Made by a program: the position numbers and the translations under genes | Assembly: GCA_024683935.1 (NCBI GenBank) | Contig: JAIKXV010000116.1 | Coordinates: forward strand, 1-61,845 | Direction of reading: 5' to 3' | Source of the DNA: Lachnospiraceae bacterium | GTDB lineage: Bacteria; Bacillota_A; Clostridia; Lachnospirales; Lachnospiraceae | Length of the DNA stretch: 61,845 nucleotides | Part shown: positions 1,084 to 37,304 of the stretch, piece by piece | How the letters are laid out: every line of letters begins with the position of its first letter | Position numbering within the stretch: the stretch's first letter is position 1 | Notes under the pieces: generated by a model | Databases searched by the model: none | Told to the model about the DNA's origin: nothing | Seen by the model: the letters and a program-made list of their open reading frames with translations, nothing else

Positions 1084-4000
1084 CTCCGGCTGCTCCCTTG
1101 CTCCGTCTCCACTCGTCCTTGTCAAGGAGCATCACATAGAATACGCTGCCGTAGAATTCGCTTTCCACATATCTGCCGCAGTCGATCACTTCCTTTACAT
1201 TTCCATTCTTGGTGATGATCCTGTAATCCACGTAGTCCTTGCAGCAATTTACATCCTTATCGATCTGCGCCCAGATGATGTCGTCAACTATCTGTATCTC
1301 TTCCGGATGGACTATGCCGTCAAAGGTGCCTCCGGTGTATTCCATGAATTCTTCCATGTTGCTGCATTCGAACATCGTGATAAGCTCTTCATTGGCGTAG
1401 AGTATCTTCTTATCGTCATTGGCCTCATAGACCAGTATCGCTCCGGGCACATAGCGGGCCACGTTCTTTACGTTAAAGGCTAACTGCAGCCTCTTTGTGA
1501 GCTTGATCTCGGGACCGAACTGCCTGTAGCTGTGCTTGCCCTCGCTCTTTACATAGTAGAGCGCGGAATCCGCCTGCCTCAGTAGCAGGGACAGGTCTCT
1601 GCTCTGATCGGGATAGCAGGAATAGCCGATGGACATCCTGAAGGTATAATACTTCCCTTCGAACATGAAGCCGTGCTCCGATTCGGAGAGCTCGCGGATA
1701 TATCTCTCCGCTTCCTCAGCACCGGCACCTATTACGGCGACGCTGAGCTCATCTCCCCCGGTCCTCGCTATAAGGGCATTATCCTTAAATAAGTCATTGA
1801 GATCGGCCGCCAGGTTCCTTAATACCTCGTCTCCCGTTATATGGCCGTACATATCGTTTATTATCTTGAAGTCGTCAATATCGATAAGCACCAGAGTGAA
1901 GGGATCGTCGGGATGCTTACTTAAGTATTCCTCCATCTCCGTATGATAACCGTGGCGGTTCAAAAGTCCCGTGAGCTCGTCGTGGTTGCTCATTATATTC
2001 AAACGGTTCATAAGATTCGTTGCAACCATTCTCGCGGAGATGAAATAGGATATTTCTTCCAGGAGCCTCCTCGTGACCGCCGTCTCATTCTTGCGGAAAT
2101 TATCAACTCCCACAAAGCCCATCACATCATTCTTGTTGTCGAAAAGAGGAATGACTATGTAGGAGCTGATGCCTTCGGACGCAAGGAATTCATAGGCCTT
2201 CGGATCTATTTTACGTATGACCTCCGTATCATCAACGACTATGCAGCTCTCCTCTATAAAGGCAAATTTCAGGGAGCCGAGATCGATATTCATGAAGTCG
2301 GTGCTTCCCCTGTTCTTTCTCGGGAGCACTCCGTCCGCGCACCACTCATGCATGGGAGCGCCGTCGGGAGCCAGCATATATACCCTGGCGGGATTCAGCA
2401 CCCGTCCGAGCTCCGACAGTGATTTATTGATGCCCTTATCAAGATCACCGGTATTTAAGAAACGGGCGATCCTTATTATCGCATTATCCGCAGCATGTCC
2501 GCGGGTCAGGAGATCCCTTTCATTCTTCGTATCCTCAACAGGCCAGAACACAAGGTTGCAGCAGCCAAGAACCGAAGAAGGAGTGGCGATATATTCCATC
2601 CACTGGCCGAAGGAAGCTTCAAAGACCCTGCCGGTCACGGTCTCGCCGTTTGAAGCGCGCCCCGCGTATGATAGCCAGTCCGGAGTCCCTCCGTAGAATT
2701 CCTTATAGCTCTTCCCCACCAGATCTATTCGGCTAAGGCCCGAATACTCGCAGTATCTGTTATTTGCAAAGATGAACTTCACGTCGGCGGTGCCGCCGAG
2801 AGTCATCACCGGCCTTACTATAATGAAGGGCAGCGGCATATCCTTAAATACATCAGGAGTGTCAAGCGCCACCTCATCATCCGTGATGCAGGCCTGTACG
2901 GCTTCCTTGGCTTCCTTTAAGCGTTTCAGAAGGAGGAGGAAAAGCTCCTGCATGGAGTTCTTTTCGCCGCCGCTTACGAGCGCCGTGCTTACCGTAAGCC
3001 CATGCTTTGTATAAAGCCCCTTTATCTCCTCAATACACTTTTCAAGCCTTTCTTCCATGTCCGCGGAAGAAACACCCTTGTCGCATACCATGAAGGTACA
3101 GTTGCCGGTCTTTGCCACAGTGGCATTTTCGGAGAAGGATCCCCTGATGGTATCCGCCGCTTTCCGTGCGAGGTTTTCCGCTTCCTCTTTGCCGCTCTCC
3201 ACATAGATCCGCTTATATTCCGCGACCTCTATCATGGCGATCCCGTATTCTTCGCCGCTTATCCTGTAATTATCGTCAAAGCTCCTGAATACCAGGAAAA
3301 ATCCCCTGGAATTCATGAGCCCGCTTTCCATATCCATAAAGAGGGCGTGATCCAGCTCTTCGCCGGAATCCAGCACCGTATCCGTATCGATAAAGTATCC
3401 GATCAGTCCCTCTATCCTGCCGTTTTTATAAATGGGATATTTGGTGGCAAGGATATTTACCCTCGCTCCCTTGGCATAGATCTGTCCGGGGGAATTGTGG
3501 ATAATGGCGCCCTTTTCGATGACCTCGAATTCATCGCTTCTGTACTGGGTGTCATCCGGATGCCATCCCATCTCCTCATCATTCTTGCCTAAAATCTCAT
3601 GCACGGAGTCAAAGCCGTAGAACTCAAGGAAGGATTTGCTGGCACCGAGGAATCTCCTGTCATTATCCTTCCAGAAGTACTTGACATCCGAGATCTCCAT
3701 AAGGGAATTCCATAAAAAGCCGTCGCTTAACAGATCTTCCCTGTCCTCGCATTCGGAAGCCCTGTTATCGCTGGTCTTTTCTATACCCATTACCTGTCTG
3801 GACATCTCCACGAAGTCGGCCTGAGATTCACGCTCTATTATTGTTATGCAGATAACGACCTTTGTCCCGCCGGAACCGGGAACGCTGCTCAAACGGACTG
3901 ATGCCCATTTGTAAACGCCGTTGATCTTCATCCTGAATACGTTTAAGACCGCTCCCCTTCCGGGATTGGAGAATCTCTTCCTGATATTCGCGGGATCAAA

Positions 4001-5869
4001 GAACTGGCTGTATCTGTCCAGATCCGCATCATATACCGCACCCGAGTCCAGGAAACGCTTTATCACGCTTTCGTAGCGGTGGCTCTCACCCTCCGAATCC
4101 GAACCGTAATCGGACTTTACGATATGCACCGAATCGTTTTCAAGATCCACCAGGTATATATTGTTGAAGGAAGCGAGAAGATCCTTTGAGACATCCGTGA
4201 TCAGGCTCTCTCTCTCCTCGTCGGATCCCCGGTCTTCGCTTAAGTACATAAGGAGCACTGCCCCGGAGCCGTTGACCGCCGCGAGGCGGGTATCCAGCCT
4301 GAAATGACAGGAATTATGGGAAAAGAGCAGATCCTCTGCCTTTCCTCCTGCCCGGATGCGTTTGGCCGCTTCCCTGAAATCCTGTATCACCGCCGGATCG
4401 GCAATACCGTTAAGTATCTCATTTATTTCATGTCCCGAGCGGGATATAATCCTGTAGAACTCATTATTTGCAAAGAAGACATCAAAGGTTTCACCATCAA
4501 AGAGAGTTAAAGCCATGGCCTTCTCAGTGATGATATTTATAAGCCCCGCCTCCGCAAAGAGTTCTCTCTCTCCGGAGCCCTCTCTTTCTGCAGTCCTGCT
4601 GTCTTTGAAGGTCTTTATCGTGTCATCGAAGGTTTTTAAGCCCCCGTAATAAAAGCCCTGAACGATCTCACAGCCGATGCTCCGCAGGAATTCTACCTGT
4701 TCCCGGGTTTCCACTCCTTCGGAAATCGTGTGGATCTTTAAGCTCTTTGCCATGACAACGACGGATTCCACTATCTTCCTGCTCCGCTCGTTAAAGGAGC
4801 GCATGAGCTCCATATCCACTTTTACGGCGGAGAAACGGAAGTCGCTCAGCATATTTATCGATGAATAACCGTTTCCGAAATCATCTATGACTACAGAGAT
4901 GTTATATGCGTGGAGTCGTTCTATCTCTGATTTCAGGAGCTCAGGATCCCTTAAGACCGTTCTCTCCGTAACCTCTATTACTATAAGGGAGGTTTCTATC
5001 CCCGTATCATGCACGATGCCGCTGACGGTTTCCGGCACATCCAGCACCAGGAAATCCGCATAGGTCAGATTGACCGCAATGGGAAGGGGATTCAGCCCCA
5101 TGTCCGAGCAGCGTTTGATGTTGGCCGCGATCTCACGTATTACAAAGGTATCCAGCTTCCATGTCAGATTATTCTCTTCAAGCACCTGCACATAGACCGA
5201 GGGCTCTATATTTCCGCGGAAGGGATCCTCCCAGCGGGTCAGGGCCTCAGCTCCGCAGTATTTGTCGTTTAAGAGCCTGACCTGGGACTGGTAATAAACG
5301 CTTATATCGCCGTTTTTAATGGCGGAATCAATATTTTCAACGACAAAAGAACGGATATCCATTGTCTCATCCATTTTGCTGTCGAAGTAGAATATCCCGG
5401 ACGTATTTCCCGTGCCCCCGTTAAGGCAGGCGAATTTAGCCTTCTCGCAGGCATTCTCCATTTTGTCCCTGTTTCTCTTATAGCCGTTATAAACCCCGGC
5501 TTTTACCGTGATCTTGCTTTTCCCCGCAAGGGAACGCATATCGTTTATGATGGCAGGGATATCCTCAGAAAGCCCGCTGTTATCCGCAAAGGCATAAAAA
5601 CAGAAGCCCCCGGAACGGGAACTGCCTGAATCACCGAAATACTTACGAAGGAGTTCCGCAAAGGCCTTTAATTTCCGCTCTCCCTCCTCTTCGCCATATC
5701 TGGCAATCAGGGGTCTTAAACCCTCCAGATCAAAATAGATCATTGCGGGATCCATGCCCTTTTCACAGGCATCGCGGAAGTATTCCTCTGCATTCTTCAT
5801 AAAGACCGCCGTTACAGGAAGGCGGGTCAGATTGTCATATTGATTTGCCTTTTCGTCCTTTTCAAACAT
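1076..5869 (-). CDS. Giant GGDEF/EAL c-di-GMP enzyme with PAS and GAF sensors
   Basis: A 1597-residue multidomain signalling protein, probably cytoplasmic since no membrane segment is seen. Order by eye: a degenerate GGDEF-like domain (about 10-165; the signature position reads RSGGFCFY), an EAL phosphodiesterase domain (about 170-425, EAL at 208-210, DDFGNGYSS at 329-337, KVD at 350-352, EGVET at 384-388, QGFYYG near 404), PAS-like segments (about 430-660 and 680-800), a second degenerate GGDEF-like domain (about 820-970), another PAS, a GAF-like domain (about 1145-1285), a C-terminal GGDEF with an intact-looking GGDEL near 1370, and a last PAS-like domain. The EAL catalytic residues are largely kept, so hydrolysis of c-di-GMP is likely and synthesis possible. 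Two opposing activities in one chain imply sensor-controlled switching. It is transcribed with the downstream glycosyltransferase and is divergent from a chemoreceptor. Confidence 0.9.
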   Translation of the reverse strand: MFEKDEKANQYDNLTRLPVTAVFMKNAEEYFRDACEKGMDPAMIYFDLEGLRPLIARYGEEEGERKLKAFAELLRKYFGDSGSSRSGGFCFYAFADNSGLSEDIPAIINDMRSLAGKSKITVKAGVYNGYKRNRDKMENACEKAKFACLNGGTGNTSGIFYFDSKMDETMDIRSFVVENIDSAIKNGDISVYYQSQVRLLNDKYCGAEALTRWEDPFRGNIEPSVYVQVLEENNLTWKLDTFVIREIAANIKRCSDMGLNPLPIAVNLTYADFLVLDVPETVSGIVHDTGIETSLIVIEVTERTVLRDPELLKSEIERLHAYNISVVIDDFGNGYSSINMLSDFRFSAVKVDMELMRSFNERSRKIVESVVVMAKSLKIHTISEGVETREQVEFLRSIGCEIVQGFYYGGLKTFDDTIKTFKDSRTAEREGSGERELFAEAGLINIITEKAMALTLFDGETFDVFFANNEFYRIISRSGHEINEILNGIADPAVIQDFREAAKRIRAGGKAEDLLFSHNSCHFRLDTRLAAVNGSGAVLLMYLSEDRGSDEERESLITDVSKDLLASFNNIYLVDLENDSVHIVKSDYGSDSEGESHRYESVIKRFLDSGAVYDADLDRYSQFFDPANIRKRFSNPGRGAVLNVFRMKINGVYKWASVRLSSVPGSGGTKVVICITIIERESQADFVEMSRQVMGIEKTSDNRASECEDREDLLSDGFLWNSLMEISDVKYFWKDNDRRFLGASKSFLEFYGFDSVHEILGKNDEEMGWHPDDTQYRSDEFEVIEKGAIIHNSPGQIYAKGARVNILATKYPIYKNGRIEGLIGYFIDTDTVLDSGEELDHALFMDMESGLMNSRGFFLVFRSFDDNYRISGEEYGIAMIEVAEYKRIYVESGKEEAENLARKAADTIRGSFSENATVAKTGNCTFMVCDKGVSSADMEERLEKCIEEIKGLYTKHGLTVSTALVSGGEKNSMQELFLLLLKRLKEAKEAVQACITDDEVALDTPDVFKDMPLPFIIVRPVMTLGGTADVKFIFANNRYCEYSGLSRIDLVGKSYKEFYGGTPDWLSYAGRASNGETVTGRVFEASFGQWMEYIATPSSVLGCCNLVFWPVEDTKNERDLLTRGHAADNAIIRIARFLNTGDLDKGINKSLSELGRVLNPARVYMLAPDGAPMHEWCADGVLPRKNRGSTDFMNIDLGSLKFAFIEESCIVVDDTEVIRKIDPKAYEFLASEGISSYIVIPLFDNKNDVMGFVGVDNFRKNETAVTRRLLEEISYFISARMVATNLMNRLNIMSNHDELTGLLNRHGYHTEMEEYLSKHPDDPFTLVLIDIDDFKIINDMYGHITGDEVLRNLAADLNDLFKDNALIARTGGDELSVAVIGAGAEEAERYIRELSESEHGFMFEGKYYTFRMSIGYSCYPDQSRDLSLLLRQADSALYYVKSEGKHSYRQFGPEIKLTKRLQLAFNVKNVARYVPGAILVYEANDDKKILYANEELITMFECSNMEEFMEYTGGTFDGIVHPEEIQIVDDIIWAQIDKDVNCCKDYVDYRIITKNGNVKEVIDCGRYVESEFYGSVFYVMLLDKDEWRRSKGAAGDE

Positions 5870-15476: not shown

Positions 15477-16202
15477 ATGAAAAAGAAGTTTTTATGTTTG
15501 ATAATGTCGACGCTGCTTGCTGCAACGCTTGTCGTACCGGTGATGGCAGATGAACCGGGCATTGCTGTTGACACCCCTGATAACTCTTCCGATGATCGGG
15601 AAGACGGAGATAATGAGGATGGCGGTAATAATGAGGATAATGGAGATGACAGGGAATCCGGGGATTCGTCGGAAAGTTCATCCGGCGATTCAGACAACGG
15701 AGAACAGATAACTTCATTTATGCAGCTGCTTACGGAAACTCCGGCGGCCACAGCCTCCGGGACAACCGATGCAAAACCTGAAATGGGCTTGATCGGTACA
15801 AACATTCAGCTTTCATTCCCGGACGGAGCTAACAGATTCACATTAAATCTAGCTGACATACAGCAGTTCATTTCGGCCGGTGTGGAAAATTATACTATAC
15901 ATACTCCAAATGGTTCGGTAACTATCCCTGTTTCGGAACTGCAGTCTTATCTGCAGACTGGTTTCCCTGTTTCTTTTGTCCTGAAAAATGATAACTCGAT
16001 AGAGCTTTACTCGAACGGATCCCTGATAAAGACCTCAAAACCGCAGGCAGCACCGGCTAAACAGCAGCAACAGGCTGAGCAGCCACAGCAGGAAACTCCT
16101 GTGACAACCGGTCAGAACGTGCAGGTTAAGGCCGGACTGGACGATGATTCGTTTTATATGAATTATAATCCTGATAACGGAGGACATCACTACACAACGT
16201 AA
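15477..16202 (+). CDS. Secreted protein with DUF5648-like repeats, 5' half
   Basis: 241 codons from a clear signal peptide (about 1-25, cleavage after VMA) to an in-frame TAA. The mature part starts with an acidic, Ser/Asp/Glu-rich linker (about 30-75), then a beta-rich region of unknown type (about 95-180), a Gln/Pro-rich linker, and the start of a DUF5648-like unit (YNPDNGGHHYTT). The stop lies exactly where the repeat should continue, and the same frame remains open for another 235 codons. GAGAGG lies 9 bases before the ATG. The protein was probably secreted and surface or extracellular. The unusual base use and the low-complexity linkers set it apart from its neighbours. Confidence 0.6.
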   Translation: MKKKFLCLIMSTLLAATLVVPVMADEPGIAVDTPDNSSDDREDGDNEDGGNNEDNGDDRESGDSSESSSGDSDNGEQITSFMQLLTETPAATASGTTDAKPEMGLIGTNIQLSFPDGANRFTLNLADIQQFISAGVENYTIHTPNGSVTIPVSELQSYLQTGFPVSFVLKNDNSIELYSNGSLIKTSKPQAAPAKQQQQAEQPQQETPVTTGQNVQVKAGLDDDSFYMNYNPDNGGHHYTT

Positions 16203-16907
16203 GAAGCGGAGTATCAGGGTCTGGTGAATAATAGTTGGAGCGGAGAAGGTACGGCATGGAAGGCTCCTCAGGAAAGAGAAACTCTGATTTCTAATACATA
16301 TAATCCTAACAGCGGAGAACACTATTTTACGACCGAAACAGAGAAGATAGCAGCAGCGCTAGCTATGGCTATGGGTGGGCTGGTTGAAGGTACGTTTCAT
16401 AATTCCGGTGATGCCGAGGGTGTACCGATGTATAGAGTATTTAGTTCTGAAAACTCTGCCGCCGGGTCACATTTTGCAAATAGTTCGGAAGCGGAAGCGG
16501 ATGCGATTATAGCCGCTGCTTGGAGTTGGAACGACAATACGGGTGAATCCCCGCTTTATTCTTTAGAAGGAGAGTCTCCAGAGAACGAGCAGTCAGGGAA
16601 CGATTCTCCTGATCAGGACACTTCCGGCGGAGAAGATTATTTAATTCATGCAGGTCAGCCGCAGCAGCAGGAGCAGCCACAGCAGCAGGCAGAGTGGGCT
16701 CAGAAAAGTGAACCGGGGCAATCGTATGGCTATTATCCCCATCTCAAAGGCTTTGAATACTCTGTTTCAGGCGAAGGTGAAAATTCAAAGCAGCTGACAG
16801 AAGGCTTGCCGCTTACAGGGCAGAGCCAGCAGGCAGAACAGTTACAGCAGCAGGCGGAACTGTTACAGCAGCAGACAGAAGAAGCAAAAAAGCCGGTAGA
16901 ACAATAA
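16203..16907 (+). pseudogene. 3' half of the DUF5648-like secreted protein
   Basis: The frame continues directly after the TAA at 16200-16202 with EAEYQGLVNNSW and then YNPNSGEHYFTT, completing the interrupted DUF5648-like unit and adding another. The end is Gln-rich (QQQ runs, 16660-16690 and 16825-16890). The first ATG-like or alternative starts after the stop lack a ribosome site and would make a protein without a signal peptide. It is therefore best read as the cut-off 3' part of one gene spanning 15477-16907. A single base change at one codon is enough to explain it. Stop-codon readthrough or a sequencing error are the alternatives. Confidence 0.65.
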
Positions 16908-16923
16908 GTTGTTATATCCCCCC

Positions 16924-18120
16924 TTACACCGGCTCGAAGCCTGAAACAATGTTTAAGACTTCCTGCCCGTATTCGGGGTAGTCATGCACTATGGAATTGA
17001 TCTCATCCCTTGAAATGTCCCTGGTCTGGGTATTGTATTCGATACGCTTCCTTATGGAAGAACGGCGTTCAAAGAGCTCGTGGCGGACTTCCACCATTTC
17101 CCCGGGATTAACAAGGGCTTCGCACTGATTGAGCCAGATGGTGGGATCCTTGACTCGGAGACTCCTTAATTCCTTAAGAAGGGCTGTACGCTCTGCCGAG
17201 AGATCGTCATTGGCTCTTTCCACCGCGATTCTCGCCTGCTTTTCTTCTATATAGGTATCCCACTGGTATGAAAGCTCGTCCGAAGCATTGACGGAATACT
17301 TCCTGTATTCGTACTCTAAAAGATTACTGGTATTCACAAAGCGGATCTTTACCTTATTAAGCTCCGCGATAACCGCATTTAAGTATCTCTCTGTCCTTTC
17401 CAGCTCCTTCGTGGCCTTAGTGTAGGTCAGATACTCGTAGATAAAGGCTCCCGCCGCAATAAAGGCCGCGGCGAGAAAACCTATCTCTGCATGCATAAAG
17501 AGACCGAACTGCAGGAAGGAAAGAAGTCCTATAAGGAGGAGGCCGAAAAGGAAGGTGATCAGAACCATGTTCTTCATATTCCGCATCGTGCCGCGAAGCT
17601 CCCTTATCTTGAACTCGCTTACCGCCTTTTCCCCTTCAAGCTTCTGGAGGTCAGAGCGTATCAGCTCCTTAAAATCCTCATTCTTCTTCATATTCCTGAT
17701 GTCGTCAGGAACCTCGTTCTCATAGCGGGAAAAGATCCTGTAGCGCTCGTCCGAGATCCGCCCTATGCTCTTCGTATTGGCGTGGGTCTGGCGGTTCAGA
17801 TTATTGATCTTGTCCGCGATCCGCTCTATCCGTCTCTTGGAATCATCAGGAAGAGCCTCTATCACTTCTATATCCGTCAGGTAATCGGTGACCAAACGGT
17901 ACTCCATTTTGGAGCGCTCTATCTCCTTATCCGCTTCTATCATCTGCTCGCAGCAGTTCTCGATATAGCGGTCCCTCTGGTCCTTCACGCGGATATTGAT
18001 GGAATCCCGGCGAAGGGGAGCATTTTCCTCCCGTATAGTATCGCCGTAATACTCATCATCATAGTCGTCGTCACGCCGGAGCGCAGATATTTTGTTTTTT
18101 ACCCAAGAAATAATATTCAC
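16924..18120 (-). CDS. Membrane-anchored coiled-coil protein, fourth gene of the DUF5717 operon
   Basis: A 398-residue protein of no family that I recognise. It begins with an amphipathic stretch and a charged segment, then long heptad-rich helices (about 45-180), two closely spaced membrane segments (about 188-210 and 215-235), and more coiled coil to the end (about 240-380). Both coiled-coil arms would lie on the same side of the membrane, giving a hairpin-shaped membrane anchor. The start ATG overlaps the stop of the TPR gene as ATGA, so it is coupled to the DUF5717/DUF5716 operon and probably acts with those proteins. No catalytic motif is seen. No terminator is visible in the 16 bases to the convergent gene. 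Confidence 0.75.
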   Translation of the reverse strand: MNIISWVKNKISALRRDDDYDDEYYGDTIREENAPLRRDSINIRVKDQRDRYIENCCEQMIEADKEIERSKMEYRLVTDYLTDIEVIEALPDDSKRRIERIADKINNLNRQTHANTKSIGRISDERYRIFSRYENEVPDDIRNMKKNEDFKELIRSDLQKLEGEKAVSEFKIRELRGTMRNMKNMVLITFLFGLLLIGLLSFLQFGLFMHAEIGFLAAAFIAAGAFIYEYLTYTKATKELERTERYLNAVIAELNKVKIRFVNTSNLLEYEYRKYSVNASDELSYQWDTYIEEKQARIAVERANDDLSAERTALLKELRSLRVKDPTIWLNQCEALVNPGEMVEVRHELFERRSSIRKRIEYNTQTRDISRDEINSIVHDYPEYGQEVLNIVSGFEPV

Positions 18121-18944
18121 CCTTTATTCCTGTATCTCGTTTTCCAGTCGTTAAGCACGCTCCGTCTAAGGGCAGTAAAGCCGGTGTAATCGCCCTCCTG
18201 CTTTTTCGTAAGAGCTTCCTTAAGTCGTTTTGCGTCATCTTTTCTGAGTGCCCTCTTCTCCGCTTCCTTCATGCGGTTAAGGCAGACGGAGTATATGCTC
18301 TCCGGGATACTCCGCCTTTCCATATAGGCAGAAAAGGCTTCATCATTCATTTCCAGCCTGGCGGCCACGATCAGTTTATCGAGGAGCGCGGGTTCGCCGG
18401 GAGACAGATTCAAAGCTTCCTCATAATATTTTAAGGCCCGGCCGAACTTGAAATTCCTCGCGGCAGCATTGCCCATGCCCGTAAGGAGCCTGGCGGCATC
18501 CGATGGATCCTCGTCCCTGTTGATAGTCTTAAGGGCCGCATTGTATTCGATAACGGCTTCCGGTATCCGGCCGCTCTTAAAGTAAAAGTCGCCCCTTACC
18601 CTGTGGGAGTCATTGCTGCTCATGCGTTCTCCCAGTTTAAGGGCCTTTTTCAGCGTTTCAAGCTCGCTGTCGGAAACAAATCGGGTCTCGGAAAAAAGCA
18701 TGCAGATCCTGTCGGAGAAATCCAATCCCCGGTCCAGCATCTCATCGTACTTCGAAGCGATATCCGGCAGGTTCAGCCGCTTTCTTATGAAGCGGGCAAG
18801 AGAAGCTCCGAAATCCTTCGGGTCCAGCATGAAGACATTTTCCCTGACATAGTAGAGAAGCTCCTCCATCGAATAGATGCCGGTGCCTGTATCCTTTATG
18901 ATATACGGTTTTTCACTTCTTTCCCCTATGCACTGATAGATCAA
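18117..18944 (-). CDS. TPR-containing protein, third gene of the DUF5717 operon
   Basis: A 275-residue, probably cytoplasmic protein. The N-terminal third (about 1-95) begins MIYQCIGERSEKPYII and contains GIYSMEELLYYVREN; it looks like a small recurring Lachnospiraceae domain. The rest carries at least two tetratricopeptide-like repeats (about 110-190, including RVRGDFYFKSGRIPEAVIEY and NFKFGRALKYYEEALNLSP), which usually bind partner proteins. The C-terminus is basic and helical. Both ends overlap neighbours by 4 bases (ATGA), so it is made in step with them. I cannot assign a biochemical function. Confidence 0.75.
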   Translation of the reverse strand: MIYQCIGERSEKPYIIKDTGTGIYSMEELLYYVRENVFMLDPKDFGASLARFIRKRLNLPDIASKYDEMLDRGLDFSDRICMLFSETRFVSDSELETLKKALKLGERMSSNDSHRVRGDFYFKSGRIPEAVIEYNAALKTINRDEDPSDAARLLTGMGNAAARNFKFGRALKYYEEALNLSPGEPALLDKLIVAARLEMNDEAFSAYMERRSIPESIYSVCLNRMKEAEKRALRKDDAKRLKEALTKKQEGDYTGFTALRRSVLNDWKTRYRNKG

Positions 18945-20191
18945 AGCAGTATTTCCTCTTCCCGTTCCTCATCCGTTGATCTGAATATCTCCCCGAAGCC
19001 CATATCCCTGATCTTCAGGATCATCTTTTCCGAAGAAACAAAGCGGAATTCGGCCCTTATCCTGCCGGCCCTGTCAGGACGGGCCGGCAGCCAGTCGAGC
19101 CTTATCACCTTGTTCCTTTCGGTTTTATCATAAATATCATTAATTACTATTATAAGCTCCCTGTCATGACCCAGCATGACTTCCAGGCTTTTGCCGGCAC
19201 TGTACCATTTTTCCCCGGCATCAGCTACAGACAGGAGAACTTCCTTCCCCTCCGAAAGAGCCCGGATGCTCACATTGGAGGTCAGGGAATCGCTCCCTAT
19301 ATATACATATCTCCTGCTGATCCTGATAAGGTCCACCATGTCGGCCGCAGCGTAGCAGGCGCCCTTGCTGAAGAGGTTCTGGCCCTTAAACACCCTGGAT
19401 CTGCTGCAGATATATCTTAGGGTCTTCTGCTCCCATCTCTCGTTAAAGGCTTCGCCGGTAAGATAGGTGCCGCTGACCCCGTTTTTCAGATCCTCCATCG
19501 CTATCATCAGGAGCTTTTCATCCAACTTTCTCCTGTCAGCTCCGAAAAAGGGTATCATGTCTTCCCGGATCTTACTCGTATTCCTTACCAGCGCCGGGCT
19601 GGTGGAATGGTCTATCGAAAGACAGCCGGACTGAAAGATGGAGTCATTGTAATCGTATAAGAGCACCCCGTTCTGCCAAAGTCCCACCGGCTGGCTCAGG
19701 GAATAGAAGAAAAAGCTCTCGCCGTAGCTGATAACCCTTATGGAGGGAATGCCGATACCCGCAGACTGTACCGCGGCGGCTATCACCTTCTCGGATAAGG
19801 GGTGAACCTTTCTCTCCGTAATGCAGAGCGCATTTACCTTTGCCATTGAGGTTTCCGGAGGGAGCCTCAGGAGATAGGATAAAAATTTCCCGAGCAGCAC
19901 GATCCACGGATCATCCCTGCTGACCCCGTTTTTCTCCGCGGAATCTAAAGCCTTCTTCAGAAGGCCGCTCTCATATCCCATGTTAAAGGAGGTCGCAGTA
20001 CTGACTGCCTCCTCTCCGAAGAGGATCCTTCCGCTGCCCGGAACCCTGAAGGCTGCCACCGGGATCTTAAAATTCTCATTCTCCTCATCGGGAGAATAGG
20101 TGGATACTCCTTCCGCGGGATCGTGGCAGATGGAGATAAGTGTGAACTTTTCCGACAGGTCTATTCCTATGACCATTGCCCTGCTATTCAA
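18941..20191 (-). CDS. DUF5716-like protein with an actin/Hsp70-type fold
   Basis: A 416-residue protein. The N-terminus (MVIGIDLSEKFTLISI) resembles the phosphate-1 loop of actin/Hsp70/sugar-kinase ATPases, but the usual GTT or GTS is replaced by SEKF. A second phosphate-like loop may lie near LLYDYNDS. The C-terminal part (about 300-410) is beta-rich and ends with MGFGEIFRSTDEE, which I recall from the DUF5716 C-terminal domain. It may be a chaperone-like or filament-forming ATPase, or an inactive relative. Start choice: a TTG at 20191 has GGAGGAG just upstream and overlaps the previous stop; an ATG at 20176 is the alternative. It lies in the four-gene operon between the giant DUF5717-like and TPR genes. 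Confidence 0.75.
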   Translation of the reverse strand: MNSRAMVIGIDLSEKFTLISICHDPAEGVSTYSPDEENENFKIPVAAFRVPGSGRILFGEEAVSTATSFNMGYESGLLKKALDSAEKNGVSRDDPWIVLLGKFLSYLLRLPPETSMAKVNALCITERKVHPLSEKVIAAAVQSAGIGIPSIRVISYGESFFFYSLSQPVGLWQNGVLLYDYNDSIFQSGCLSIDHSTSPALVRNTSKIREDMIPFFGADRRKLDEKLLMIAMEDLKNGVSGTYLTGEAFNERWEQKTLRYICSRSRVFKGQNLFSKGACYAAADMVDLIRISRRYVYIGSDSLTSNVSIRALSEGKEVLLSVADAGEKWYSAGKSLEVMLGHDRELIIVINDIYDKTERNKVIRLDWLPARPDRAGRIRAEFRFVSSEKMILKIRDMGFGEIFRSTDEEREEEILL

Positions 20192-23100
20192 AGAACTCCT
20201 CCACGGTCTCGGTTAATTTCATATACTGCTCCATCAGGTCATTCAGACTCAGATCGTCATTCACCGATTCTGAAAGGAGCATGTCATTTATCATATCGTA
20301 TCTGGAATCCGTCCTTCCGCCCCGGGTCACATCTCTTTCCAGAAGCTCACTCCGGACAGGTTCTCTCCCGTTTTCGTTCTCCTCCGTGATGTAATACTGC
20401 AGCTTTTCCCCGTAAAATAGCACAAAATCGCTGCTGTAAACACCCTGGTAATTCTCATCCATATTATCCGCGCGGAATTCGCCTACGTCATCCATATCAT
20501 CGGAGATGCGGTAATTTATCATAACCTTCTTCTCCGGGTCTGTCATATATTCCACAAAGGTCCTGTCGTGATAGAGGCTCATGGCAGGCACATTCTCCCT
20601 GTATTCCCTGAAGAAATCAAAGACGGTGCCTGCTTCCAGAAGCTTGTCAACCAGGGGTGAGAGCTGTTTCTTCACATCCGAATCCCGGAAATCGGAATAG
20701 TATTTTAGGAGGGAAAGCGCCGAAACATCATCCAGCTCCCCGTATTCCCTGTATCTCTTTAACAGTGCCTTGAAGATCTTCCGGTCAACTATCCTTTTAT
20801 TTATAAAGTATTCATGCGAGATATAGGCAAGGCTCGCGTCTATTATCTTGTCCCTGCCGCCGTTTTCTATGCAGCTTAAAAGTATCTCATCCCTGTCGGA
20901 TGTGAATGACTTTGCATAGAGCATCTGGGAGAGGATCCGCTCTTCTATCTTCACCGTATCCACATTGAATTCGTGGGCGGCTTTCCAGATATCCCGGAGA
21001 TCCTTTATCGTGCCCTGAAATTCCGCACAGAGATAGGTAAGTATGTTTTCATCGTACTTGCCCCTTTTAAGCGCTTCCCAGGCGAGGTTTATGAGACAGG
21101 GATCCTCTGTATTTATCCCCTCTCCTATCATACGGCTCAGGAGCCGCACCAGTATCACGGGATCCACGCCCTCAGGGCCGTACTCCTTTATAAGCTCATA
21201 GACCTTCCGGTGCATGCCCCGGGACACATAGAGCCTGGAGAGCTCTGCCCTGACATCCGGTGAAACCAGAGAAATATCCAGGTCGTCCAGGATATTGTCC
21301 AGTTCCTCAAACCGGTCATGATCCGAAAAGTATCTTATCAGCGCAAAATAGCACTCATCCCGTATGCTCCTCTCAATCTCGGGAGACGAGGATATCAGAC
21401 GGATGCTGCTCTCATTTACCTGATTTACCTGTATGGTATGACGTCCGCTGCCGCAGACATAGAAGGCCTGTCCCACATCTCTTTCAAGGCCGAACCTGAT
21501 GGCCTTTGTAAACTTCACGGGATTAAGGAGTATCCTGTCCTCTATGCCCTTTTTGCCTATGGCGCGGTGCATATCGCCGTATTCGAATATCAGATCGTAT
21601 TCCCCGCCGTAGAAGGTGATAAGGGCTCTGCCATTTGTCACATTGCCGCTTCTTTCCCTGACAAAGCCGTTCTCCACCGAGGACACCATCGTAACCTTTT
21701 TGTCCCTGACGCTTATCTCGTGGCAGAATATAAGGGGTCCCACCGCGAGCAGAAAGCGGTTTGAAAACTCCGGAATATTAAGTGTGGCCACATATTCGTA
21801 TATCACTGCGAGATCCCTGTTTATCAGGTTTTTCTCCGCTTCCTTTACCGCAAAGGCCGCGATCCGCTGCTCATTATCCTTTAAGATATCCGGGACTTCG
21901 TTCTTATGCTTTATCAGGTTCGCATAGAACAAAGACATCCTGTCATCGCCCACTCCGGCGCCGATGGAAAAATACATAAGTACCGGTTCCGGCATCAACT
22001 CTTCCCGGTCGGATGGAACCGTGTTCAGATAACACTCATAGAGACGGGTGATCTTCAACCCGTACCTTACCCCGGCTTCAAACCAGCGGAAATCGTCTGA
22101 ATTCCTCTTTCTTTCGCCCCTCTCCCGGATCAGCATCCTGCATATCTCTTCTAAAAGCTCCACGGATCCGGTCTTATTGTAATAAGCCTTCAGCACTGCC
22201 AGAAGTATCGGGGAATAGCTCTTTATGTTGTAGCTTAAGGATATCAGGGCAGTTACGAAATCATCATAGTAAATATCGTATTTTACGCCCCAGTGCAGGG
22301 CATAAACCTCTGCAAGGCCGTTAAGGCGGTATCTGTCACTCTTTTCTGTCATGGCCCTGAGGAGCTCGATATAGAGGAAGGGGCTCCGGACTCCCAGGTC
22401 AAACTGTCCGGATAAAAGCTCTATTCTCTGATCCGGGTGATTTTCCAGCTCTTCATCAAGGTATATCAAAAGCCAGAGGAGGATAGGCGAATCCGGCATG
22501 CTGTGGCTCAAAGCCTTTACATCCCGGGATATCTCCCTGGCGTAGGCCCTGTCCTTTCTGTGAAGGGCCTTCAGGTATTTATAGTATCCTTCCGCTTCAT
22601 CATGAATCTGTCCCAGCATGAACTCATTGCCTATAAGGGACAGCATCATATCAGCATCATTGTCCCTCCCCTGCATGAGATAGATGTGGGTCATGACGAG
22701 CCTCGGCAGTATATCCCTGTCATTATCGTCCGTCATCCTGCTGCAGATCACTGACATTTTTTCACAGACCGTATCGGGATCCGTCCTTTTCAGGCGGAAA
22801 TCCACATAGAGCTCCGTAATATCCGATATGTTCCTTTGCCGCCGCAACTCATTTTTTCTGTCTTCCCTGAGTTTCCTTTCGGATGCTCCGGCGTTTATTT
22901 CTATCTTAAGGACAGAGCTATGGGACTTCAGTCTGATCTGTCCGATATTTTTCCCTCTGTGCAGAGAATCCCTGTCGATGGAAAACTGAATGACAGCTAT
23001 ATCACCGTTAAAGTCCGCATCCGTGATCACGCTTTTTTTCAGGTGGATAAAAGGCTCAGCCGATGAAACTTCAAGCCTTATATAGCCCCAGCCGCTTTTC

Positions 23101-23750
23101 CTTATCCTGATCTCCGGCGGGTTTGCAAGATCCCCTTCTTCCGTAAGCTCCACCTTTTCCTGGTCAAGGGTGTAGATCACCGGGGATTTCTTATGTATCG
23201 CTACCAGAAATTCCTCTACGTTTACCGCAGAACCCGGATACACGGAAAAGGACCGGTAGAGATTCTTGAACCTCCTGTCCGGTGTCTGGAAGATATTTAT
23301 CATTTCCGGGGAATAGAAGACGTTCACCGCTTCCTCAAAGCGGTTTCTGGCAAGATTCGTGAAATGAAAGAGGTTTTTTATCGTTCCCTGGGAGCTTTCC
23401 GGGAACTTCATTACAACACTTACCGTAAAGGGAAGGCGGTATTCGCCGTCCTCGGTGACAAGGGAAATATCCCCCTTTATCACGGTGCCGGCGACAAGTC
23501 CCTTGGATCGGAAGATATAGTGGAGCTCTGCCTCGCCCTTTAAAAAGGTGACATTATCGCAGACCATACGGGGGTCCGAGGTCGCCACCATGCCGTTGAT
23601 CTCGCCCTTATCTTCCGAGAGCACATGAAAAACGCCTTCGGTATCCTCATTGGGATAAACCGCAAGCTCCAGCTTCTGCTCGGGAAATTCAAGGGTCGAA
23701 TGACCGTAACCGAACTCTCCGTTTAATATGCGTTCAATGTGGCTCTCCAT
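20184..23750 (-). CDS. Giant DUF5717-like protein, first gene of the operon
   Basis: A 1188-residue protein with no signal peptide or membrane segment, so probably cytoplasmic. Two beta-rich domains occupy about residues 1-130 and 180-310. A long helical-repeat region (about 320-640 and 800-1080, TPR-like solenoid) is split by another beta-rich segment near 680-790 that contains ITFYGGEYDLIFEYGDMHRAIGKKG. A C-terminal domain follows (about 1080-1188), with DFVLFYGEKLQYYITEE. It matches what I recall as DUF5717, usually found beside DUF5716. The start is the ATG at 23750 after a GGGGG; a TTG 69 bases upstream opens the same frame but lies before the leader hairpin's end. The size and repeats suggest a scaffold for the other three proteins. 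Confidence 0.75.
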   Translation of the reverse strand: MESHIERILNGEFGYGHSTLEFPEQKLELAVYPNEDTEGVFHVLSEDKGEINGMVATSDPRMVCDNVTFLKGEAELHYIFRSKGLVAGTVIKGDISLVTEDGEYRLPFTVSVVMKFPESSQGTIKNLFHFTNLARNRFEEAVNVFYSPEMINIFQTPDRRFKNLYRSFSVYPGSAVNVEEFLVAIHKKSPVIYTLDQEKVELTEEGDLANPPEIRIRKSGWGYIRLEVSSAEPFIHLKKSVITDADFNGDIAVIQFSIDRDSLHRGKNIGQIRLKSHSSVLKIEINAGASERKLREDRKNELRRQRNISDITELYVDFRLKRTDPDTVCEKMSVICSRMTDDNDRDILPRLVMTHIYLMQGRDNDADMMLSLIGNEFMLGQIHDEAEGYYKYLKALHRKDRAYAREISRDVKALSHSMPDSPILLWLLIYLDEELENHPDQRIELLSGQFDLGVRSPFLYIELLRAMTEKSDRYRLNGLAEVYALHWGVKYDIYYDDFVTALISLSYNIKSYSPILLAVLKAYYNKTGSVELLEEICRMLIRERGERKRNSDDFRWFEAGVRYGLKITRLYECYLNTVPSDREELMPEPVLMYFSIGAGVGDDRMSLFYANLIKHKNEVPDILKDNEQRIAAFAVKEAEKNLINRDLAVIYEYVATLNIPEFSNRFLLAVGPLIFCHEISVRDKKVTMVSSVENGFVRERSGNVTNGRALITFYGGEYDLIFEYGDMHRAIGKKGIEDRILLNPVKFTKAIRFGLERDVGQAFYVCGSGRHTIQVNQVNESSIRLISSSPEIERSIRDECYFALIRYFSDHDRFEELDNILDDLDISLVSPDVRAELSRLYVSRGMHRKVYELIKEYGPEGVDPVILVRLLSRMIGEGINTEDPCLINLAWEALKRGKYDENILTYLCAEFQGTIKDLRDIWKAAHEFNVDTVKIEERILSQMLYAKSFTSDRDEILLSCIENGGRDKIIDASLAYISHEYFINKRIVDRKIFKALLKRYREYGELDDVSALSLLKYYSDFRDSDVKKQLSPLVDKLLEAGTVFDFFREYRENVPAMSLYHDRTFVEYMTDPEKKVMINYRISDDMDDVGEFRADNMDENYQGVYSSDFVLFYGEKLQYYITEENENGREPVRSELLERDVTRGGRTDSRYDMINDMLLSESVNDDLSLNDLMEQYMKLTETVEEFFE

Positions 23751-23799: not shown

Positions 23800-23824
23800 G
23801 TCACCTGCGGTGATCGCAAGTGAC
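23800..23824 (-). promoter_or_regulatory. Nested palindrome in the leader of the DUF5717 operon
   Basis: GTCAC...GTGAC outer arms and TGCG/CGCA inner arms around a GTGAT loop. A second overlapping palindrome (TCACC, 3 bases, GGTGA) lies within. It sits between the predicted promoter (23847-23855) and the start codon, so it could be an RNA hairpin or an operator. Confidence 0.5.
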
Positions 23825-23846: not shown

Positions 23847-23855
23847 ATTATACCA
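23847..23855 (-). promoter_or_regulatory. Extended -10 promoter for the DUF5717 operon
   Basis: TGGTATAAT on the minus strand: a perfect -10 with TGn extension, with TTCAAA (four of six) 16 bases upstream as a possible -35. Transcription would start near 23840, giving a leader of about 90 bases. Confidence 0.65.
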
Positions 23856-23886
23856 TATATAACGTCACTTTGAACGGAGACTTATA

Positions 23887-25099: not shown

Positions 25100-27070
25100 T
25101 CACGAACCGCTTTCGGAAACCGTTGCGATCACGGACTCTGATACTGCCGTGGGTTCCGCTTCATAAAACTCGGGTAGCGGGACCTCTATCTCGGTCTCCT
25201 GCACGGGTACCGCACTTTCTGCAGGAGTTACATCCGTCTTTTCAGTCTTCTCGGACTTTTCGTTCTTCTCCTGCTTCTCTGCCGCCTCGTTTGCGGAAGT
25301 GCTTTCCTTCTTCTTATCCTTCTTGCTGGTATTCTCGGTCTTCGTCTCTCCTGCCTTGCTTATCTCCAGGTCGGTTGCATTGAAGTGTCCGAATACGCCC
25401 TTATTGTCGATCCTGTTTCCGTGAAGGACGAAGTTGTAATTCTCATAGACGAGACTGCCGTTCTCCTCTGTCTTTCCGACATCGAAACTGCCCTCTATCG
25501 TTATCACATCGCCTTCCTTAACGGAATTCACAACTGAAGGATGGCTTAAGAATACGGAATTTACCGAAAGTGCCTTTATCTCCTTCTTTGACTTAAAGAG
25601 ACTGTGCTCAAGTATATATGCAGCTTCCAGGTTCTCGTTATTCACGCTGCCACTGTATACGCTGCCGGATGTCATGAAGAGTGATGCCACAGCAGAAGCT
25701 ATGTGGTTCTTCAGCTTCTTGGACATGCCGTAACGGTCAACCTCATCCTCTGCGCTTTCGACAGTAGGTGCAGCCTCTGTGCTCTCTGCTGTGCTGTCAT
25801 GGGCACCTTCTTCAGCTGCGGTCTCTGTTCCCGCATTTTCAACTCCCTCATGCTCGGGAGATGCAACTGTGGATGCTTCTTCTGCGATCTCTGTGGCGGG
25901 TTCTGCAGTATCTGCGGTCTCTATGATCTCATCTGCCGCAGTGCTCTCAACTGTTTCAGCTTCATCATAGGTGCTGCCTTCTTCATTGGAAGATACCTTA
26001 TCCGCTGACGAAACAGTGCTTCTGTATATAGTAGTTCCGACCGTACCGCCGGTTCCTGCAACTGCAACTGCTACTGCTACTGCCAGGCCCTTGGCTGCTC
26101 CGGCTCCTGCCGCTGCTGTTCCTGCGGCGCCTGCTGCTGCCGTTCCTGCTGCTGTTGCCGCCGTTCCGGCTGCTGCTGTTGCTGCGGTACCTGCCACTGC
26201 CGTTCCGGCTGCTGCTGTTCCGGCTGCTGCTGTTCCGGCTGCCGCCGTGGTACCTGCTACTGCCGCACCTGTTGCGATGGCTGTGCTTCCGGCCACCGTT
26301 CCGGTAGCTGCGGATATGCCCGCTCCGCCTGCAAGTGCTGTTCCTGCTATAGCTGCGCCTGTAGCCGCTATGCCGAGTCCTGAACAGATATTTCCGAATA
26401 CTCCTGCAGCAACGGGTGCTGCGAGAACCGTCTCCTCGGAAAGGATCTGTACCGCACCGAAGATCAGGGCACCGGTAAGAGCCATCTTTCCTGCTCCGGT
26501 CTTTCCGCCCTTCTCTGCGGCTTCAAGCTTCTTCTTTAACGCCTGTCTCGCATAGCTGAGCCTGCTCTTGACCGTTCCTACTGAACAGTCCATAACTTCG
26601 GCGATTTCTTCGATCTTTATATTGTCATAATAGAAAGCCACCATTGTGGCACGCTGTACTTCGGGAAGAGAGTCAATGAGCGATGCAACAAGCCGCTGCT
26701 GCTCCTTCCTCTCGAATGAGAGCTCCGGCCTGGAATCGATGTCAGAGGTCTCCACACTGTCAAAGATGTTCTCGAAGTCCTCGTCCAGCAATATTTCTTT
26801 CTTTTTCTGGAATATCTTCATTCCCTGCCTGAAGGTAATCGAACTGAGCCAGGAATAAATGCTCTCTGCTTTGTCGAGACTTTTTATCGACTTATACGCT
26901 TCCATGTATACGATCTGCATGAGGTCCATTGCATCATCTTCATTCTTCATGACCTGCTTCGCACGGAAATATACATAGTTGTAAGTCTTCTGGTAAACCT
27001 CGTTAAAGGCTTCGTCATTCCCGCTCTTAAGTTTTTCAACAGCCGATTTGAGCTTAGGATCTACTTCCAT
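25100..27070 (-). CDS. ECF-type sigma factor fused to a membrane and extracytoplasmic region
   Basis: A 656-residue protein. Residues 1-185 are a sigma-70 family factor: region 2 (about 20-90, DAMDLMQIVYMEAYK) and region 4 (about 135-180, with IEEIAEVMDCSVGTVKSRL). From 196 a hydrophobic stretch (MALTGALIFGAVQIL) leads into an Ala/Gly/Thr tract (about 212-345), ending in a hydrophobic AVAVAVAVAG segment. Then come an acidic Ser/Thr/Glu linker, a folded-looking part with DVITIEGSFDVGKT and LHGNRIDNKG (about 445-585), and a charged tail. The layout suggests a sigma factor held at the membrane with a sensor outside the cell, to be freed by proteolysis, which is inference. GGAG lies 6 bases before the ATG. 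Confidence 0.8.
   Translation of the reverse strand: MEVDPKLKSAVEKLKSGNDEAFNEVYQKTYNYVYFRAKQVMKNEDDAMDLMQIVYMEAYKSIKSLDKAESIYSWLSSITFRQGMKIFQKKKEILLDEDFENIFDSVETSDIDSRPELSFERKEQQRLVASLIDSLPEVQRATMVAFYYDNIKIEEIAEVMDCSVGTVKSRLSYARQALKKKLEAAEKGGKTGAGKMALTGALIFGAVQILSEETVLAAPVAAGVFGNICSGLGIAATGAAIAGTALAGGAGISAATGTVAGSTAIATGAAVAGTTAAAGTAAAGTAAAGTAVAGTAATAAAGTAATAAGTAAAGAAGTAAAGAGAAKGLAVAVAVAVAGTGGTVGTTIYRSTVSSADKVSSNEEGSTYDEAETVESTAADEIIETADTAEPATEIAEEASTVASPEHEGVENAGTETAAEEGAHDSTAESTEAAPTVESAEDEVDRYGMSKKLKNHIASAVASLFMTSGSVYSGSVNNENLEAAYILEHSLFKSKKEIKALSVNSVFLSHPSVVNSVKEGDVITIEGSFDVGKTEENGSLVYENYNFVLHGNRIDNKGVFGHFNATDLEISKAGETKTENTSKKDKKKESTSANEAAEKQEKNEKSEKTEKTDVTPAESAVPVQETEIEVPLPEFYEAEPTAVSESVIATVSESGS
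26087..26275 (-). repeat. Ala/Gly/Thr-coding repetitive tract
   Basis: Repeated GCTGCTGTTCCG-like units on the plus strand, coding AGTAAAGT-type repeats (residues about 266-328 of the sigma fusion). Many copies differ at the third base only. The unit length is a multiple of three, so copy-number change would keep the frame. Confidence 0.75.
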
Positions 27071-35156: not shown

Positions 35157-37304
35157 CTATTGTGTTATGTATGACGGTATCTTTCCTTTATAGAAGTTTC
35201 TGAAGTAGGTCATGGTATTATTGCCGTCTGCCTGGGTTCCTTCCTTCGGATATATCTCCACCGAATGAGCATCGTTATCCAAAATAGAGTTTTTCATCCA
35301 TGCACTGTAGCTTACATTTGAAATGGAAGCGTCCATCAGCTCTTCTATCTTACCAGCCTCGGTAAACTCCTGAGTGTCACTGATAAATTCATCTGTTTCC
35401 TCATCATGCTTATTAAACTGGACCACTACCTTATCCACCTCCGAAGGTGTCAGGAATCCGCCACTCCAGAGTTCCTCCGACTCAAGGAAGGCTATGCTGT
35501 TATCATAGTTCTCGTAGATCGGCCAGGTCACATTGTATGCTTTGTTATCGTACAGATTTACATATCCCTCGGGATTATGCTCTGATGCCAGAGTGTAATT
35601 ATAGTGCTCCTGAAGGTCCTTACGATAAACATCCAGGAAGGCTTCCGCCACATCCTTCTTTGTTTCGATGCTGCCGTGCTCCGTAGTCGTGCTTATCGTG
35701 AAGGTTCTCTTCGGATCTGCATTTCTGGACTTTTCCATAAAGGGAACCACATCATCTATGTGATAAACACCTTTAACAAATTCCTCCGTTCCAACTATCC
35801 TGTCCATAAGGGCGGGGTCGATGCTTTCGGGGATCATCACCTTTCTGGTGACAATGCGGCCGTCCTTTAATCTCCAGCCGATGATCGCATAAAAGCATCC
35901 CGAATTCCATTCCTCTATCGAGTTTTTCCTGATCTCAACCGCCTTAGCCTGGCTTATTTCCGCAAGCTTCAGCATATCTGCGGTACAGTTAAGGAACATA
36001 TTCTTTTCCATATAGGCCGTGGTGGGAATATAATTATCGTAATCATCATAGCTATCCGTATTGTAGTTGTAGTTTAAGAGCCAGGAGCTTTCCACGCTGC
36101 TTTCTGCGGGGAGATATCTGTCATAGCCCGTCACGCCGGTTCTGAAGATAAAGAGTATCGCAATGGATATCACCGCTGTTACCGGCATATGCCAGGCTCT
36201 GTGAAAGGCCATCCTGACATTCTGGGCAAATATGGACTCCAGGATCAGCGATGTGATGAATACCGTAAGGAGTATGGTTATTATAATCGGCCCCAGATTT
36301 GCCGCCCGGCTTTCATTAAAGATCCAGTATATGAAGAGTCCGGCTTCCAGGGAGAAAAGAACTCCCGTAGTTATTTTAATGAACACTTCCAGCGGCCTGT
36401 ATATTACCGCCTTTCCCGCAGCCTCTGCCTTTCTGTTCTTATATACGAGATATGCGATGACTATGCTTATTACAAATAAAAGCAGGTTTATCAGCGTGCC
36501 TTTCGCATATGCTCCGGCGCAGGACAGTATGTCTGCCACGGTGTGGGATCCGCCGTTATCCAGCAGATTGCCGAGATTAGAGTCCATTATCCCTTTAATA
36601 TAGTTATAAGCCGGCACTGTGTATATATTGGACAGTATCCCGTCGCTTTTATCGCTGTCAAAGGTGGCATAGTAGGCTGCCCTGTATCCTAAGAGCGTGA
36701 AGCGGCAGATAAACTCGAAAGCGAATATAAAGAGGTTCATAAGTACCGCCGTAACCACTGTACCGGTCAGAAGCGAAGCCAGTATGCTCATTCCGTACAC
36801 CGCAAGGAAGATAATGGTCTGCAGGCAGTAACCTAGCAGCATATCGGCTATCAGCCAGGGCAGCAGGCAGCCGTTTGCCGCGGCTATCAGCATACTGAGT
36901 ATCATGCAGATAAAGGACGGCAGGAAGTAGATAAAGAAGCCGTTCACTGTGATATTTGCAAACCTCGTGCTCCTCTTCTCCGGGCGGCTCTCGTAGAAGT
37001 CCACGGTCTGGCTTTTATACAGATAGGCAAAGCCCTGGATCGCAAGGATTATCGCTCCCACAGATCCTATGAACCAGTTAAAGCCCCTCATTCCCATGAA
37101 TGCGGATATACCGTAAGCGCCCCTCGCTGCAAAGTCATCGTCCATAAAGAACTGTGATCTCTGTATCTGCAGTATCATAAAGGTTCCGAATACGTCATAG
37201 AGAAAATACATAATGCTTGAAAGTGCGAGAAGGGGGAGCCTTCTCCAGAGCATGGCCTTCTGTTCTTTTATGATTTTACCCAAGGATGAATTTGCGGATG
37301 TCAT
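35157..37304 (-). CDS. ABC transporter permease with long extracytoplasmic region
   Basis: A 715-residue integral membrane protein with roughly ten to eleven hydrophobic segments in the N-terminal 400 residues (for example near 35-60, 75-100, 115-145, 155-185, 255-285 and 305-380), followed by a long soluble C-terminal region (about 420-715) that is probably extracytoplasmic. I recall this tail as DUF6449-like. It is the membrane partner of the ATPase encoded just upstream, whose 3' end overlaps its start by 29 bases, and belongs to a YtrA-type operon. GGAGG lies 9 bases before the ATG at 37304. The substrate is unknown; related Bacillus Ytr systems respond to cell-wall-active peptides. Confidence 0.85.
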   Translation of the reverse strand: MTSANSSLGKIIKEQKAMLWRRLPLLALSSIMYFLYDVFGTFMILQIQRSQFFMDDDFAARGAYGISAFMGMRGFNWFIGSVGAIILAIQGFAYLYKSQTVDFYESRPEKRSTRFANITVNGFFIYFLPSFICMILSMLIAAANGCLLPWLIADMLLGYCLQTIIFLAVYGMSILASLLTGTVVTAVLMNLFIFAFEFICRFTLLGYRAAYYATFDSDKSDGILSNIYTVPAYNYIKGIMDSNLGNLLDNGGSHTVADILSCAGAYAKGTLINLLLFVISIVIAYLVYKNRKAEAAGKAVIYRPLEVFIKITTGVLFSLEAGLFIYWIFNESRAANLGPIIITILLTVFITSLILESIFAQNVRMAFHRAWHMPVTAVISIAILFIFRTGVTGYDRYLPAESSVESSWLLNYNYNTDSYDDYDNYIPTTAYMEKNMFLNCTADMLKLAEISQAKAVEIRKNSIEEWNSGCFYAIIGWRLKDGRIVTRKVMIPESIDPALMDRIVGTEEFVKGVYHIDDVVPFMEKSRNADPKRTFTISTTTEHGSIETKKDVAEAFLDVYRKDLQEHYNYTLASEHNPEGYVNLYDNKAYNVTWPIYENYDNSIAFLESEELWSGGFLTPSEVDKVVVQFNKHDEETDEFISDTQEFTEAGKIEELMDASISNVSYSAWMKNSILDNDAHSVEIYPKEGTQADGNNTMTYFRNFYKGKIPSYITQ

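Follow-up and report, generated by a model that had tools for sequence, protein, structure and literature searches.

A Lachnospiraceae operon of DUF5717 and DUF5716 proteins as the probable remnant of a more extensive Hsp70 operon

A four-gene operon of a Lachnospiraceae bacterium (contig JAIKXV010000116.1, assembly GCA_024683935.1; minus strand, 16924..23750) encodes a giant protein (A), a pseudo-Hsp70 (B), a tetratricopeptide repeat (TPR) protein (C) and a membrane protein (D). The window analysed is the whole 61,845-nt stretch of this contig. Computation supports reading the operon as a cut-down version of a larger one found in the order, where A is followed by an Hsp70, a GrpE-domain protein, the orthologue of B, a second Hsp70, an Hsp70 with a VWA domain, C and, in some cases, D in last position. 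The Lachnospiraceae locus has lost three ATPase-intact Hsp70s and the GrpE-domain protein, and has retained A, B and C; D is retained at fewer than half of the loci read. New here are the Hsp70 origin of DUF5716_C, the Pfam family of B, and the larger operon. Few gut bacteria are as common as Lachnospiraceae, and it is a genuine gap in knowledge that genes shared by nearly all sampled species of the family have no assigned role.

Conservation of the operon and anatomy of its proteins

The family, order and class samples are groupings around G001, one of the six closest relatives of the window; the six closest loci belong to Lachnospiraceae, with B identities of 63-73%. DUF5717, the family of A, was found in 247/250 genomes of the family, once in 242 and twice in five, the two matches in these five being pieces of one gene on one contig. 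The three genomes without DUF5717 likewise had no DUF5716_C. Of the 196 genomes in the order sample, 94 hold DUF5717 and 92 DUF5716_C; 91 hold both, three DUF5717 alone and one DUF5716_C alone, which agrees with an earlier reading made from the sequence only, where the two families were said to occur together. In the class sample DUF5717 was present in 13/293 genomes, and a short-A profile matched 12/293 genomes in the class and 5/249 in the phylum (two marginal: G861 and G935). No A-D gene or Hsp70 gene of the h types described below adjoins the marginal A match in these two genomes (L140, L141), and none of 14 named control genomes had DUF5717 or DUF5716_C.

Gene order was read at 67 loci: 60 regions (54 from the family search and six from the class search), hand-picked down the match ranking with long contigs favoured, together with L001-L006 and the window. 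By six-frame search, A is present at all 67, B and C at 66 each, and D at 32. A, B and C are consecutive in 66/67 neighbourhoods, with B and C fused in two. The sole exception is L055 (genome G036), without B or C near A. As the main ranking stopped above the weakest matches, 20 weak-scoring genomes were chosen as a second set and gave 18 loci. One of them, in G540, is a full operon and the other 17 are reduced; among the latter, B adjoins A in 16 and C, separate or fused, in 15. At 66/67 the adjacency of A, B and C exceeds chance, and the outcome named beforehand as a refutation, homologues that seldom adjoin, does not occur for these three genes.

Protein A matches PF18984 (E 5e-227, 756 bits) and PF18983 (E 6e-95, 318 bits), each with a curated cut-off of 25; the matches span the whole protein, which is thus a DUF5717 member. 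Its AlphaFold model has a predicted local distance difference test score (pLDDT) of 85.8 and a predicted template modelling score (pTM) of 0.59. According to the model and fold matches, two Ig/PapD-like domains are followed by a TPR-like solenoid, a beta domain, a second solenoid and a C-terminal beta domain, confirming the solenoid-plus-beta giant that had been proposed. We infer that A is a scaffold. Matches of its solenoids to Naa15, Ski3 and IFT-A are generic and no inference was drawn from them.

Protein B belongs to DUF5716_C (PF18980; E 4e-80, 269 bits against a cut-off of 34.7), and the Hsp70 family PF00012 is absent from its matches up to E 1. Its fold was read from the model of a homologue, P0121, B and C being modelled together as a natural fusion. 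The predicted fold is that of an Hsp70, with a nucleotide-binding domain (NBD) and the beta part of a substrate-binding domain (SBD-beta). A helical SBD-alpha lid is missing from the fusion model, where the C part begins after the SBD strands with no intervening helix. None of 63 aligned B proteins retains all seven ATPase motif residues. The GGGT loop is lost (G196 in 2/63, T199 in 11/63), as are residues T11 (2/63) and T12 (9/63). Only this phosphate-loop loss is robust, because the catalytic Lys and Glu columns are alignment-dependent. With its phosphate loops degraded, B does not have the intact ATP site of actin, MreB or ParM. The search for actin-fold ATP-binding residues, suggested beforehand, agrees in part with the earlier proposal of an actin/Hsp70-like protein that is an ATPase or an inactive relative: B is a degraded relative of an ATPase of that fold, and specifically an Hsp70 descendant with a substrate-binding domain rather than a generic actin-fold protein. 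In four pairs among the near relatives L001, L003, L005 and L006, dN is 0.04-0.09 and dS 0.66-1.31, with ratios of 0.04-0.08 for all four genes. B is therefore not a decaying copy, and computation supports purifying selection on A, B and C.

Protein C matches TPR_2 (E 3e-10). B and C form a single protein, with C attached to the end of B, in L079, L090 and L124. With the L090 fusion as query, 65 proteins were returned; 44 of them, at 687-726 aa, have the size of a fusion and cover 89-100% of the query. The three fusion loci occupy two places in the A tree described below, but the long branch of L124 groups there with a second long branch, so that two independent fusions are no more than likely.

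For protein D, Pfam gave no family above cut-off and NCBIfam no match up to E 1; weak matches to keratins were disregarded. A hydrophobic stretch at about residues 181-231 identifies it as a membrane protein, as had been anticipated, and the sequence reads as a putative coiled coil flanking this stretch on both sides.

The larger Hsp70 operon of the order and its probable reduction

Among 20 outgroup loci from more distant members of the order, 17 have A and four genes named h1, f1, h2 and h3 in the consecutive series A-h1-f1-h2-h3; L117, L119 and L121 are broken or different in arrangement. Outgroup A is often split in two. A membrane-protein gene stands directly upstream of the split A at L102, L108, L113 and L117; the two scanned gave no Pfam family above cut-off. 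At L114, h1 and h3 are HSP70 proteins by Pfam, and f1 carries a C-terminal GrpE domain in 4/4 proteins scanned. The orthologue of B is h2: the two profiles align over 423 columns (probability 100, E 6e-43), and h2 exceeds the PF00012 cut-off in 2/3 scanned. When 16 loci were extended downstream (L142-L157), all 16 held h4, a protein of about 696 aa with a C-terminal VWA domain (HSP70 and VWA by Pfam in the two scanned). C adjoins h4 in 14, and D is found in five, four times after C and once (L149) after an open reading frame (ORF) unmatched by the C profile. G540 represents an intermediate form. Besides h1, B, h3 and D, it carries A, h4 and C, each of them split, together with a short f1 and a valS-sized gene. 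As an ancestor of C or D, f1 was rejected for want of a profile signal, in a comparison whose C alignment then included two fusions; these fusions also caused a spurious h2-C profile match, and the C profile used later was built without fusion proteins.

Three trees bear on the direction of change. In a tree of A (54 rows, quick search, Shimodaira-Hasegawa-like approximate likelihood ratio test only), 36 reduced rows form one clade (support 97, starred) with G540 as sister (99, starred) and 17 outgroup rows outside, so that one state change is enough for full versus reduced operon. Loci L123-L139, first taken as early-diverging, are scattered through the reduced clade. A DnaK tree of 20 rows, with three external Clostridia as its root, groups six reduced genomes in one clade (91/95) next to G540 as their sister (100/99, starred) and leaves ten full genomes paraphyletic. 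In an Hsp70 tree of 57 rows rooted on DnaK, h1, h3, h4 and B each form a single clade, and B is nested among h2 (h2 plus B, support 86), its sister being the copy from G540 (99, starred). Given these topologies, loss is the better reading.

The lost Hsp70s do not appear to have moved elsewhere. Thirty Lachnospiraceae genomes hold at least 17 further HSP70 ORFs of about 500 aa or more beyond the main DnaK, and none of the 16 scored (L189, in G136, was left out as a wrong ORF) is an h1, h3 or h4. Among these 16 the h1/h3/h4 scores reach at most 309 bits, for a protein whose DnaK score is 947, against 692-848 bits for the h1, h3 and h4 copies of G540, which were outside the profiles.

Layout of the locus

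Features of the operon in the window
Feature	Positions	Strand	Basis
A: giant protein, DUF5717_N and DUF5717, 1188 aa	20184..23750	-	Pfam, AlphaFold, fold matches
B: pseudo-Hsp70, DUF5716_C, 416 aa	18941..20191	-	Pfam, fold of homologue P0121, motif counts, Hsp70 tree
C: TPR protein, 275 aa	18117..18944	-	Pfam, six-frame search of loci, fusion search
D: membrane protein, 398 aa (least certain member)	16924..18120	-	hydrophobic stretch, locus counts, outgroup copies
Promoter-like site, TTCAAA-16-TATAAT, TG before second hexamer	23847..23874	-	consensus match only
Leader hairpin, 10-bp stem	23800..23824	-	fold z -2.16; stem absent from five relatives

All four ORFs and their ends are as first read, with serial overlaps at the A/B (20184/20191), B/C (18941/18944) and C/D (18117/18120) junctions. 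Median spacings across the loci are +14 nt for A-B (65 loci), -4 for B-C (63) and +14 for C-D (32). For A (P0186, 1188 aa), an ATG at 23750 preceded by a GGGGGA box was preferred to a TTG at 23819. One promoter with a palindromic leader had also been proposed. The promoter-like site has 10/12 consensus matches in a region holding 11 such sites against 8.5 expected in shuffles, and is weak evidence by itself. The palindrome does exist in the window, but five aligned relatives do not have its stem, and the folding of their leaders does not exceed that of shuffles (z -0.05 to 0.63); a conserved leader element was thus rejected. Upstream of A, L001, L005 and L006 carry a 7-bp inverted repeat unlike the window palindrome, with RNA folds no better than shuffles. 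Rfam gave zero matches above the gathering score in the whole window.

Neighbours of the operon, named from sequence, include adenylosuccinate lyase, other purine genes, valyl-tRNA synthetase and an aminotransferase; the same type of aminotransferase lies upstream in 35/67 Lachnospiraceae and 12/20 outgroup loci. At 25100-27070 (-), a 656-aa protein combines an N-terminal ECF sigma factor with a long Ala/Gly/Thr-rich acidic tail, and its gene stays adjacent to the operon in L001, L003, L005 and L006. On the other side, two same-frame ORFs at 15477-16907 (+), the second matching DUF5648, are split by an in-frame TAA at about 16200 and represent a broken gene, read-through or a sequence error. 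Elsewhere in the window are a 1597-aa protein with EAL, GGDEF and PAS domains, EAL preceding GGDEF (1076-5869, -), and a 722-aa ORF with zero Pfam matches at E 1e-5 (35157-37325, -).

Proposed function, alternatives and known systems

We favour, with a probability of about 55%, a reduced chaperone operon made of a scaffold, a non-cycling B and a TPR partner, likely serving constitutive client holding or assembly. Computation supports the anatomy, the history and the constraint; the mechanism we infer. A would serve in the cytosol as the scaffold for B and C. B, without an ATP cycle, would work in an Ssz1- or Hsp110-like manner, either by means of its substrate-binding domain or by giving the housekeeping DnaK a place to dock, or both. 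The TPRs of C could present clients or partners at the position of the missing lid, and D, where present, may tether the complex to the membrane. The clients, constitutively held or assembled, would likely be a set that the whole family shares. More tentatively, at slightly under even odds, all ATP-competent Hsp70s and the exchange factor of a dedicated multi-Hsp70 machine were lost in one event, while the pseudo-Hsp70, the scaffold and the TPR protein became a proteostasis complex that runs without an ATP cycle and is near-universal and single-copy in Lachnospiraceae. It would be the bacterial equivalent of the eukaryotic non-hydrolysing Hsp70s.

Several observations weigh against this chaperone reading. 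B and C lie away from A at L126, and C was not found at L134. One h2 row, L116, has a very long branch (4.4) and is placed outside the clade of h2 and B. No J domain was found in A-D or in seven scanned L114 operon genes. The alignment-dependent columns of B leave a Glu two columns off (near E171) in 88% of the proteins, and B may still bind nucleotide. Finally, D is missing from 35/67 loci and from 16/17 of the further reduced ones, the exception being L132.

This last point makes D the least certain member, and its proposed adjacency, set beside that of A, B and C, does not clearly hold. That the system consists of A, B and C only, with D a mere neighbour, is a real possibility that we rate somewhat below an even chance. 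Among the 35 Lachnospiraceae genomes with a D-less A locus, 34 have no strong D match, two having weak ones, and away from the operon D adjoins a valS-sized ORF in 2/4 outgroup loci (L179, L180). However, C and D overlap by 4 nt in the window, D was found elsewhere in 9/9 tested outgroup genomes without an operon D (one match partial), and the one strong match among the 35 is in G036, where B, C and D are displaced jointly to a different contig from A (L178).

Alternatively, A-B-C(-D) could have ceased to be a chaperone and be a scaffold for structure or trafficking, tied to the cytoskeleton, secretion or the envelope, that uses the old Hsp70 fold only as a binding module. The degraded phosphate loops of B, the membrane location of D and the PapD/ASH-like Ig domains and solenoids of A, as in many scaffold proteins, are in line with this. 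We nevertheless consider it unlikely, since the model retains the substrate-binding beta domain and the larger operon includes three intact Hsp70s and a GrpE domain; for the cytoskeletal or secretion complex suggested earlier, this analysis gave no positive evidence. That B continues to cycle ATP as an Hsp70, by means of atypical catalytic residues, is improbable: the Asp8 column is retained in 51/63 proteins and the Glu near E171 is frequent, but the GGGT, T11 and T12 losses and a reduced operon without a dedicated GrpE-domain gene argue against cycling. An ancestral window form, with the large operon as later elaboration, is more improbable again and already disfavoured; A alone is not rootable and the DnaK support for the reduced clade falls short of a star, but the rooted DnaK tree places full genomes outside and reduced ones inside, with 100/98 (starred) at the node splitting the full ones, and G540 is intermediate. 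An anti-phage defence system, also raised at the outset, was rejected: GTPase-centred conflict systems are reported to combine Hsp70, GrpE and TPR (parts of PMC7159879) and L114 h1, h3 and h4 match the PADLOC candidate model PDC-M61B (E 1e-4, 2e-8 and 8e-6), but DUF5717 is near-universal in the family, the neighbours are housekeeping genes, none of the four proteins of the operon in the window matched a PADLOC model at E 1e-3, and no GTPase domain occurs in A-D or the seven scanned L114 genes.

If the chaperone reading is true, two unassigned Pfam families gain an origin and a testable role, and the Hsp70 fold can be retained as a non-cycling part in bacteria, like eukaryotic Ssz1 and Hsp110. 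In addition, the full operons of sister lineages and the reduced ones would be a natural experiment for asking which of its parts a chaperone machine cannot do without.

The system appears undescribed, as had been supposed: literature searches, with most subscription journals outside their reach, gave no description of the operon and named only DUF5716, mentioned once in an unrelated paper. In PMC11019930, which treats DnaK duplication, a word search gave no mention of Lachnospiraceae. A and B are members of DUF5717 and DUF5716_C, to which Pfam assigns no function. B shares with Hsp70/DnaK (PF00012) the NBD and SBD-beta of its homologue's model and the h2 link to the family, and differs by its phosphate loops, its missing lid and its lack of a PF00012 match. 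The GAP1-N2 conflict systems, as described in parts of PMC7159879, comprise HSP70, GrpE and an FNIII protein with TPR or DnaJ, and a subset of them adds a second, lesser HSP70. They are centred on a GTPase and GAP1, neither of which is among the genes scanned here; their second HSP70 has no peptide-binding domain, whereas B has one; and they are linked to a multicellular habit, whereas this operon is near-universal in one family. Sse1, an Hsp110, binds ATP and uses its SBD-alpha (parts of PMC8476630), whereas B is lidless in the model. Ssz1 of the fungal ribosome-associated complex is, in the same parts of PMC8476630, an Hsp70 with little or no ATP hydrolysis and no lid. It binds ATP and pairs with a J-protein, a partner absent from the operon genes scanned here, and no ribosome link is known for this operon. 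With these differences, Ssz1 is the nearest working parallel to B.
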